Source of the DNA: Fimbriimonadaceae bacterium
GTDB taxonomy: Bacteria; Armatimonadota; Fimbriimonadia; Fimbriimonadales; Fimbriimonadaceae
DNA: 64,000 nucleotides
Assembly (NCBI GenBank): GCA_022843485.1
Contig: JALHNM010000003.1
Span: 62,001-126,000 of the forward strand
Direction of reading: 5' to 3'
The notes beneath the pieces were generated by a model. The model searched no databases and was not told the origin of the DNA. It was given only the letters and a program-made list of their open reading frames with translations. A program made the translations under genes and the position numbers. How positions within the stretch are numbered: position 1 is the stretch's first letter; every line of letters begins with the position of its first letter. This document shows, piece by piece, positions 29,832 through 33,015 of this stretch.

Positions 29832-29940
29832 GGGTTGCGCGAAAAGTTGGGCCCGCCGAAGCGAATTCTCTGGCTGGTTCGACCCTAACGCGTAGCGGGG
29901 CCGTCTGCCGATACTCTTTCTAGGGTCGACGGACGGCCCC
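29813..29940. repeat. Two direct and one inverted GACGGCCCC motifs in a divergent gap
   Basis: GACGGACGGCCCC occurs at 29813-29825 and again at 29928-29940. An inverted copy (GCGGGGCCGTC, 29895-29905) pairs with GACGGCCCCGC (29817-29827). A GCGCAA-GGG-TTGCGC hairpin (29826-29840) lies inside. One copy fills the -35/-10 spacer of the lipoprotein promoter; another sits just before the divergent gene at 29952. Confidence 0.65.
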
Positions 29941-29951
29941 AGCGAGACCGT

Positions 29952-31490
29952 ATGCCGCGGGCCAAGACGAAGCCGACTGAAGCAGAAGGAGGTGTGCGCC
30001 CGACCCCGGCCCGTGCCCGGGAGGACCGGCTCCTTGACGCCATCGAGGCCCTACGGTCCGAGATCCAACTCGTTCGATCGGAGGTGGCCACGCTCCACGA
30101 GGACGTCACCCGGGCCCGAGCCGAGGCAAGCTCCGCGAGTCCGGTGGGCACGCTCCCATCCCTCACAGACGAGGGCTTGGAGATTCCGGTTGCGGCCGAC
30201 GCCCCCCCCGACGAGGTCGAGCCAAACGTCCCGCTCCCAGAACAGCCAGTCGCCGAAGAGGACAACGTCCCAGGCCCTACGGAAACACTCGTCCCCACCG
30301 AAGTCCTCTCGTCGGCCGCCGAGGCGGGCGCCGAACCAGAGACGAGGTTCGAGCCGAACCTACCCTCGCCCGAGGCCGACGTGGAGAGCCAGGCTGAGGC
30401 CGTCATGGGCGCCATCGTCGACCAGATCGTCCCTAGTGGGGAGTTCGACGCCTCGCAGTTCGCCGCTGACTTCGATCTCGCCGTCGCGAACCCCGAACCG
30501 GTGGTCTGGAGCGCCGACGAGGCCCCTGACCCCGAGCCCGAGCCCGACGAACCGATCGATCCTGAACTCGAGTCCCAACTCATCCAACAGATCCACGAGA
30601 AGTTCCCGGACCTCGCCGCCGAAATCGACCGTTTCAACGCGGACGCCGACCCGATCCCGACAGAGCCCGGGGCAACCGCCGCCACGATCACCGATGAGGA
30701 GATGGCGGCGCTTACGGAGGGGATGGCGTTCCTCAGCGAGCCGGAACAGCCCACCATGGACGCTGGACCGGAGGCCGAGGCGGACACCCCGGTCGGCATG
30801 CCCGACCCACACTCTGAGCCCGAACCGGTCCAAGCCGACGTGGACGACGGCAGGCAAGCCCTGAGCGCCGCCGAAATCGCCCTGCTGATCGCCCAAGCTA
30901 GCCCCGATCCTGCCCCAGAGGCCCAGACCGAGGTTCCAGCGGCCGTCCCAGACGACCCGACCCCACCCGCGAAGGCGTCGTCCGTCGTCTCGGCCGACGA
31001 GATCGAGAAGATGCTAGGGCTGCGGAACGACCCCGTCGTCCCCGCAGGGCCCACCCCGCAGGAGTTGGCCGCCGCCGAGGCCGCTGCAGCGGCGACCGAG
31101 CCAGCCGACCAACCGGAAACGGTCCAGGCCCTCGCCGAGCCCGAGACCGAGTCGGACGGCGGGGCCGAGCCCGTCACAGATCTCCTGCCGTCGTTCGAGG
31201 CTTTGGACCGCGTCCCTGGTCGAGTCGCCGCGGCGGCCCTCGTTCTGCCGCTCGCCGTAGAGGGCGACACCCTCGTCTGCGCCGCCGCAAGCCCCATCGA
31301 CCCCGCCGCCCTCGACGAGGTCGCCCAAGCGTCAGGGCTGACCGTCGAGCCGCGGGAGGCCGAGATCGGAGCGGTCGTCGCCGCGATCCGGCATTGGTAT
31401 GTCGGCGAGATCGATTCCCGCCGGGCCGTGACCGAGACGCGCGACCCTTTGGCCGCCGTGAAGGCCCTCGTCCGTAGGAAGGCAGCATGA
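29952..31490 (+). CDS. Acidic low-complexity protein with FliM-like peptides and MshEN-like C-terminus
   Basis: A 512-aa protein. Residues about 20-55 form a short coiled coil (DRLLDAIEALRSEIQLVRSE). About 60-400 are an acidic Pro/Glu/Ala linker in which short helical motifs recur: TDEEMAALTEGM (about 247-258), LSAAEIALLIAQ (304-315) and SADEIEKMLGL (347-357). These resemble the FliM N-terminal peptide LSQSEIESLL encoded at 48388. Residues about 413-500 match the second half of the type II secretion/PilB N-terminal (MshEN) domain (LVLPLAVEGDTLVCAAASPI); the RLGxxL c-di-GMP-binding half was not seen. Its stop overlaps the ATG of the MinD/FlhG-like gene. A role in positioning or signalling for flagella or pili is inferred. 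Confidence 0.65.
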   Translation: MPRAKTKPTEAEGGVRPTPARAREDRLLDAIEALRSEIQLVRSEVATLHEDVTRARAEASSASPVGTLPSLTDEGLEIPVAADAPPDEVEPNVPLPEQPVAEEDNVPGPTETLVPTEVLSSAAEAGAEPETRFEPNLPSPEADVESQAEAVMGAIVDQIVPSGEFDASQFAADFDLAVANPEPVVWSADEAPDPEPEPDEPIDPELESQLIQQIHEKFPDLAAEIDRFNADADPIPTEPGATAATITDEEMAALTEGMAFLSEPEQPTMDAGPEAEADTPVGMPDPHSEPEPVQADVDDGRQALSAAEIALLIAQASPDPAPEAQTEVPAAVPDDPTPPAKASSVVSADEIEKMLGLRNDPVVPAGPTPQELAAAEAAAAATEPADQPETVQALAEPETESDGGAEPVTDLLPSFEALDRVPGRVAAAALVLPLAVEGDTLVCAAASPIDPAALDEVAQASGLTVEPREAEIGAVVAAIRHWYVGEIDSRRAVTETRDPLAAVKALVRRKAA

Positions 31491-32296
31491 AGAGCATCGG
31501 GGTTCTGAGCGGGAAGGGCGGGGTCGGAAAGACGACGGCGGTTGCGGCGCTCGCTTGGGCGTGGGACGCCCTGGGGACATCGGTTCTCGTGATCGACGGG
31601 GATTGGGCCCTGGGCGACCTCGACGTCGTGCTCGGAGTCGAACCCAGCGAGGGACTCGGGCACCGGGTGCTGTCCGGTCGGCCCGTCACCGGACTGGCCA
31701 AGGCGGTCGGCGGCAAGGTCTCGCTCATCGCCGCCGGAAACGGGGACCCGCGCCTCGCGAAGCTCGACGAACAGGCCCTCGCCCTCGGGCTCCAGGACGC
31801 CTTCGTCGAGGCGGAAGGCACCGACGTGGTCGTCGTGGACGGGCCCTCAGGCATTGGCCCCGGGGCAAGAGCCGTGGCACGCTCGGTCGGCGAGCTGCTC
31901 GTCGTCCTTGAACCGACGTCCTCAAGCGTGGCAGACGCACTGGGGTGCCTGACGGCCGTGCGCGACGTGCTGCGGCGGTCGGAGGTATGGGCCCTGGTCA
32001 ACCGGGCGGCGGGGCCAGCCCAAGGGAGGGCCACCCTCGAGGCCTTCCGGCAAGAGGCAGGTCGGTGCCTGGGCCTCACGGTCGAACCGGTCGGAGTCTG
32101 GACTGAGTCGAGCACCCTGGCGAAGGCCGCGCGGAGGCGAGCTGTCCAGGGCGTGGCCCAAGGGAAACTGCCGCTCGCCCGAACCCTCGCCGCCTCCGCA
32201 AAGTGCCTGGCCGGCGCCTTACCCCAGCCCCTCGGCCGCCCCATCCTCGCGGGCCTAGGCGGATCTGCCCCGGTCGAAGAGTCGAAAGCCGCGTAG
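31487..32296 (+). CDS. MinD/ParA-type ATPase, FlhG-like
   Basis: A 269-aa P-loop ATPase with a deviant Walker A (LSGKGGVGKTT), switch I DGDWALGDLDVVLGV and Walker B region VVVVDGPSGIGPGA. The ALGDLDVVLG stretch and overall length resemble FlhG/YlxH and MinD. No clear C-terminal amphipathic membrane-targeting helix was seen. Such proteins position or count flagella, pili or other polar machines. The 4-nt overlap with the acidic protein before it suggests the two act together. TadZ/CpaE-like pilus proteins are an alternative. Confidence 0.8.
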   Translation: MKSIGVLSGKGGVGKTTAVAALAWAWDALGTSVLVIDGDWALGDLDVVLGVEPSEGLGHRVLSGRPVTGLAKAVGGKVSLIAAGNGDPRLAKLDEQALALGLQDAFVEAEGTDVVVVDGPSGIGPGARAVARSVGELLVVLEPTSSSVADALGCLTAVRDVLRRSEVWALVNRAAGPAQGRATLEAFRQEAGRCLGLTVEPVGVWTESSTLAKAARRRAVQGVAQGKLPLARTLAASAKCLAGALPQPLGRPILAGLGGSAPVEESKAA

Positions 32297-32334: not shown

Positions 32335-33015
32335 GTGCGCCGCGCGTTCACCCTCATCGAGCTCCTGGTGGTCGTCGCGATCATAGCGATCCTGGCGGCG
32401 ATCTTGGTGCCTGTGTTCGCCCGGGCCAAGGCGGGCGCCCAGCGGGCGGGTTGCCTCGGCAACATGCGCCAGATCGGCCTCGCTTCGGGGCTCTACCTGG
32501 GCGACGGTGACGATCGGATGCCCGACCGGCGCGACCTCAAGCGTTCATTGCCTGGGGGCTATCGCCCGTGGGCCGGGTGGCCCCGCTCGGACCCCCGGTC
32601 GGGTTGGGCGTTGATGGTGTACGACCTGTACGTCCGTGAACAAGCCGTCTGGACGTGCCCGTCGGTCTTCGGGCTCTTCGCCCGGCGCACCGAGGTCGAG
32701 CAAGAGACTCCGATCGGCACCGCCCGCTATTGGATGTGGCGGTTCGACCGTACGGACGACCCGGTGCCGCTCGACAACTTCTGGGGCAAGACGCCTGACC
32801 AAGCGACGAACGATCTCTACCAGTTGAACGACCCGATCACCGGGCGGCCAGAGGGACCGAGCGAGGTCGAGCTCCTCGTAGACCCCTACTTCCCCGCCAC
32901 GATCCCGACGGTGCCGGACGAACTTAAGGGGAGGTCTGCGCACCCCGGCGGCCGGAACCGGCTGTTCCTCGACGGGAGCGCGAGGTACCTCACAGACCGA
33001 CGGACCCAACGATAA
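32335..33015 (+). CDS. Prepilin-like secreted protein with HX9DG motif
   Basis: A 226-aa protein from a GTG. The N-terminus is a type IV prepilin leader ([20 protein letters not shown]) with the F-T-L-I-E-L-L cleavage/methylation signature. The C-terminus holds [17 protein letters not shown], the H-x9-DG motif common in pseudopilin-like proteins of Planctomycetes and Armatimonadota. The globular middle has several Trp and two Cys pairs. It needs a prepilin peptidase and an assembly ATPase encoded elsewhere. It lies 38 bp after the FlhG-like gene. Confidence 0.85.

Follow-up and report, generated by a model that had tools for sequence, protein, structure and literature searches.

The locus at positions 29952-32296 of the window, the 64,000-nucleotide stretch that was analysed (G000 contig C3, 62001-126000), raises the question of what is served by an acidic protein that carries several FliM-like peptides and is encoded next to an FlhG-like ATPase. 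A short peptide region at the FliM N-terminus is read by both FlhG and CheY; a multi-copy version of it that occurs in nature, encoded beside an FlhG-like ATPase, would give direct access to the choice between its use in switching and in assembly.

Architecture and inheritance of the gene pair

Both open reading frames of the pair, described in the earlier note from the letters alone, are present on the plus strand and overlap by 4 nt, through ATGA. The first (29952-31490) encodes the acidic protein of 512 amino acids, hereafter called the scaffold (protein family B), which we delimited from its ORF, Pfam, orthologue alignment and an AlphaFold model; its start codon is backed by an orthologue with a like beginning (MPRATK..). 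The second (31487-32296) encodes an FlhG/FleN-like ATPase of the MinD superfamily, 269 amino acids long, with an intact deviant Walker A motif, GKGGVGKT. On the minus strand, a Ser-rich open frame of 592 amino acids (29885-31663) runs antisense across the scaffold gene; it is probably no gene of its own, but a shadow cast by the GC-rich gene on the plus strand.

Every one of the 24 genomes sampled from one clade (nine genera) carries the scaffold family; the search covered 85 genomes of the bacterial family, and outside that family the order yielded weak matches to the MshEN part only. The gap between scaffold and ATPase genes stays between -4 and +19 nt in all 17 measured pairs. A FliM tree built from 36 genomes groups the 19 carriers as a single clade (97/98), and one gain with vertical inheritance thereafter is the simplest reading. 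In two carriers, one member of the pair appears broken: the ATPase gene of G033 has an internal stop, and the scaffold of G102 is split over two frames. The gene pair is real and conserved and, as far as the searched literature shows, undescribed. Long open frames of about 950-1030 amino acids also match the family profile, at G004:C15:95494-97566, G033:C1:2493007-2494974 and G089:C153:9232-9720; G004 and G033 hold such frames at two places each.

The genes around the pair vary between genomes, and no flagellar or pilus assembly gene adjoins the scaffold gene, save for a lone pseudopilin-like gene found 3' of the pair in three genomes (the window, L062 and L067). In the window it lies directly downstream (32335-33015), with an N-methylation motif and a borderline DUF1559 match.

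From its N-terminus onwards, the scaffold has a predicted coiled coil (residues 19-62), several conserved helices within residues 140-231, a long disordered stretch of acidic character and, at residues 411-486, its C-terminal domain. The coiled coil (30006-30137) is modelled as a helix in a block with pLDDT up to about 90, and Pfam returns LPP and ZapB matches for it below cut-off only. Within the conserved helices, a hairpin of residues 204-231 (30561-30644; pLDDT about 90) contains the motif PDLxxxIxxFN, which is kept in most aligned members of the family.

The C-terminal domain (31182-31409; pLDDT about 97) had been read as half of an MshEN domain, with an unrelated fold as the alternative to be checked. 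It does have the MshEN fold (Pfam PF05157, E 9.5e-12), and superposes on residues 64-145 only of MshE, that is, on the MshEN_C half alone (5htl; Z 11.0, rmsd 2.1, across 79 residues). As was also claimed, no assembly ATPase is attached: the chain stops 26 residues past the domain, with no secretion ATPase core behind it. MshEN is the sole Pfam match above cut-off, and neither a FliM middle domain nor FliMN_C is found in the scaffold. By its domain content, the scaffold is neither a pilus assembly ATPase nor a C-ring protein. The chain closes with a predicted basic helix of residues 499-511 (..AAVKALVRRKAA; 31446-31484). Basic tails are common among orthologues and, together with the predicted helix, made a conserved membrane anchor a candidate; we rejected it, as amphipathicity, measured by the hydrophobic moment, is mostly not above that of shuffled tails.

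Among solved structures, the nearest to the ATPase are FleN (5j1j, E 6.5e-21) and FlhG (4rz2, 1.4e-17), with MinDs behind; 4rz2 and 5j1j are also the nearest folds to the model of a related fusion ATPase. With 63.1 bits, it does not reach the NCBIfam MinD cut-off of 212.9. It starts with MKSIGVLSGKGGVGKT, too short a beginning for the DQAxxLR enhancer helix that defines the FlhG N-terminus (PMC12826062), and this motif is absent. FlhF is likewise missing from bacterial family f1: TIGR03499 scores above cut-off in 14 of 61 genomes, all outside f1. Since the ATPase lacks the DQAxxLR helix and the bacterial family gives no FlhF match above cut-off, the pair as encoded is not a canonical FlhG system, despite the FlhG/FleN-like sequence and fold of its ATPase. 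Across the order, FlhF matches above cut-off come mainly from family f2, in which the query with the FlhG-like ATPase matches nothing; in families f1 and f5, MshEN-linked ATPases are found while no FlhF passes the cut-off, so that the two distributions nearly complement each other.

The window ATPase has no clear amphipathic C-terminal tail; some relatives have helical basic tails. Its catalytic motifs are intact, whereas 6 of 18 aligned family members are degenerate at the P-loop lysine or the DxD motif. Because of these degenerate members, ATP cycling would not always be needed, and in part of the family the ATPase may be a binding partner rather than an enzyme.

FliM-like peptides of the acidic linker

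FliM of the same genome (48370-49419, plus strand; PF02154, 1.9e-55) has the N-terminal peptide LSQSEIESLL. The LSxxEIxxLL type of peptide, a FliM/FliY feature, recurs in the scaffold: the three copies pointed out in the earlier note are all there, although TDEEMAALTEGM is a weaker match than the other two. This looser copy is motif 1, ITDEEMAALT (residues 246-255; 30687-30716). Motif 2, LSAAEIALLI (304-313; 30861-30890), and motif 3, VSADEIEKML (346-355; 30987-31016), both follow the strict pattern, [LMIV][ST]xx[DE]Ixx[LM][LIFVM]. AlphaFold places a short isolated helix at each, over residues 248-259, 306-315 and 348-354, respectively. Unlike FliM and FliY, the scaffold carries several mid-chain copies, and neither the FliM middle domain nor FliMN_C accompanies them.

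Shuffling the window linker gives on average 0.001 strict and 0.004 loose motifs, and none of 20,000 shuffles reaches the observed counts. Taken over the window protein and six orthologues, the linkers contain 13 strict copies, where shuffling predicts 0.0065. Across 22 orthologues we counted 39 strict motifs (0.05 expected) and 69 broad ones (0.72 expected), with no match to the reversed pattern; on these counts, the peptides are not a product of chance. In 134,866 amino acids of called genes, 17 strict matches were found: 13 in the scaffold family, one in FliM and three elsewhere.

The motifs are thus kept across orthologues, as the earlier note had asked to be checked, in numbers that range by the broad pattern from none (G022) to eight (G030); G088 and G030 have near-identical tandem copies. 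Their consensus, [LM]S[DA][DE][ED]IAA[LM][LF], matches LSQxEIEALL, the peptide of FliM in the same order. A text search of the literature for the peptide letters returned unrelated text only.

MshEN domains and FlhG-like ATPases across the order

The coupling of MshEN to FlhG-like ATPases reaches beyond this pair and is, in the genomes compared, well supported. The same order has operons of a stand-alone MshEN protein and an FlhG-like ATPase, with or without a further kinase-like region; one such second pair is found in the window's own genome (L061:8527-10558, on G000 contig C11). The L061 MshEN protein has two RLG repeats of c-di-GMP type, of which one is degenerate, plus an extra region at its C-terminal end; the related protein of L076 has a weak kinase-like score. 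In seven genomes we found eight ORFs in which MshEN_C and the ATPase are fused in a single chain, with the ATPase C-terminal (L069, L072, L161, L162, L163, L164 with two, and L175). We found no description of this fusion architecture, and among the papers listed by a literature search for MshEN together with MinD, no such pairing came up.

Since fusions and operons couple MshEN with FlhG-like ATPases across the order, a partnership of MshEN_C and ATPase is likely, and the link to the ATPase suggested by the earlier note is strengthened by both operon conservation and gene fusion. In a tree of MshEN_C, from which we used the main split alone given its few columns (about 75), the window family sides with the fusions, apart from stand-alone MshEN proteins and PilB (95/88).

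The proteins known to carry MshEN (MshE, PilB, PilF, GspE, NfrB) share with the scaffold the MshEN_C fold of MshE 64-145. The scaffold differs from them in lacking the MshEN_N half with its two RLG c-di-GMP motifs, and has no assembly ATPase or glycosyltransferase attached. CpaE/TadZ-type MinD proteins join a small docking domain to a MinD-type ATPase. The MshEN_C-ATPase fusions do so as well, with MshEN_C in place of a receiver-like domain; in the window the docking domain is a separate gene. MshEN domains are known from glycosyltransferases and from the ATPases of secretion and pili; the cases seen here suggest a wider class in which they have FlhG-type ATPases as partners.

The c-di-GMP receptor motif of MshEN consists of two copies of RLGxx..LxxxLxxQ (PMC5013675). 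One or two relaxed copies occur in 13 of 16 stand-alone MshEN proteins, in none of the eight fusions and in none of the 22 scaffold-family members. The proposal that the scaffold receives a c-di-GMP signal therefore finds no support for the window protein, whose binding half is missing; judged by the known motif, it is no c-di-GMP receptor. For bacteria without FlhF, the stand-alone members may point to a positioning ATPase that is controlled by c-di-GMP.

Candidate partners of the FliM-like peptides

We put at about even the chances that the pair is a scaffold with its dedicated FlhG-like ATPase, and that the FliM-like peptides bind a partner of the FliM N-terminus, of which a CheY-type regulator would be the likeliest. 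The coiled coil would dimerise the scaffold, the basic tail at its C-terminus may keep it membrane-bound, and MshEN_C, which the fusions and operons make a likely docking piece, would dock on the ATPase. The peptides would bind whatever takes the FliM N-terminus, an established CheY-P site: most likely a CheY-type response regulator, with the FlhG-like ATPase as the second candidate. The scaffold would then compete for that partner in multivalent fashion or serve as its reservoir, which would tie localisation of the ATPase to motor switching or C-ring assembly.

A FliM-type peptide is a known ligand of this class of ATPase. FlhG binds FliM through the FliM N-terminus (PMC12826062); FliY is the FlhG-binding counterpart in Bacillus and Geobacillus (PMC12826062, PMC12327844), and its first 36 residues are both needed and enough for FlhG binding (PMC12327844). 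Here the peptide sits in a separate scaffold and in several copies, with which the scaffold should compete with FliM for FlhG and/or CheY-P. A response-regulator link of this kind is possible, and the pair may have a role in the placement of flagella or pili. Several findings count against the regulator-binding scaffold: four well-assembled genomes have kept the scaffold family although they lack CheA, FliM retains its peptide in genomes without CheW, the orthologue of G022 is devoid of any motif, the ATPase is degenerate in part of the family, and the C-terminal tail of most members shows no significant amphipathicity. In a more specific and rather tentative version, the scaffold may act as a decoy, a multivalent FliM mimic tied via MshEN_C to its own ATPase, which would buffer CheY-P or FlhG and link chemotaxis output to flagella number or position, as part of a wider undescribed MshEN-FlhG class with c-di-GMP motifs in some members.

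The peptides might instead bind the neighbouring ATPase, which would be kept off the C-ring and freed on signal, a partner switch encoded in one operon. The known binding of FlhG to FliM-N and FliY-N, nucleotide-independent in the case of FliY (PMC12826062, PMC12327844), argues for it, as do the universal pairing of the scaffold and ATPase genes and the motifs retained despite a degenerate ATPase P-loop (L067, L079). On the other hand, no such motifs occur in the sequences that we read of the order's other MshEN-ATPase pairs and of the fusions, so the ATPase needs none for its MshEN partner; the FliY-binding residues of FlhG, K177, R207 and F215, have no confident map onto the ATPase, as the numbering of paper and chain could not be matched. 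We hold this arrangement possible, though clearly behind the regulator-binding scaffold; between CheY and the ATPase as peptide partner, the data lean slightly to CheY and do not decide.

A generic amphipathic helix, made for self-association, phase separation or docking on MshEN_C and resembling FliM by convergence with no common partner, would explain why the motifs sit as predicted isolated helices in acidic disordered repeats and vary freely in copy number. The likeness spans the whole L-S-x-x-E-I-x-x-L-L pattern of FliM, however, and among the genes examined few strict matches lie outside the scaffold family and FliM; we regard this explanation as unlikely. Less probable still is an adaptor for type IV pili or secretion, in which MshEN_C would dock a PilZ- or GspL-like protein, the pair would control pilus assembly or polarity and the downstream pseudopilin would belong to it. 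The matching part of PilB does fall within the region solved with PilZ (7lkm, 7lko), and the pseudopilin-like gene follows the pair in the three genomes named above; it is not beside the pair in the remaining genomes examined, no PilB, PilC or PilT neighbour was recognised, and the family's MshEN_C groups with the ATPase fusions, not with PilB.

Four well-assembled family-B genomes without CheA (G082, G089, G105 and G106) hold 1, 0, 0 and 0 strict motifs, whereas CheA-positive members have a median of 2 (p 0.004, not corrected for kinship); this is a weak hint in favour of CheY as the partner. CheW is found in 23 of 24 family-B genomes (Fisher p 1.6e-5 per genome, 0.018 per genus). We do not take this co-occurrence as proof of a CheY link, nor as independent evidence, because the carriers form one clade in the FliM tree and count as a single event.

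FliM itself keeps its motif in 9 of 9 readable CheW-negative genomes, which rules out that the motif is retained only with chemotaxis. As the scaffold outlives the loss of CheA and the FliM peptide is kept without CheW, the CheA-CheY pathway cannot be the sole reason for the peptide. In three of the CheW-negative genomes with a FliM motif (G014, G023 and G027), no FlhG-like ATPase was confirmed: the window ATPase query has no match, and with the stand-alone-type query the best matches of G014 and G027 are Mrp/ApbC proteins, G014 has a second, weaker match and G023 one weak match. The CheW-less flagellated loci L092, L096 and L098 of these three genomes retain a FliM peptide of the LSQxEIEALL type, as do the CheW-less flagellated loci L084, L087, L089, L091, L103 and L105; two of the CheW-less flagellated genomes have the variant LSPEEIEALL.
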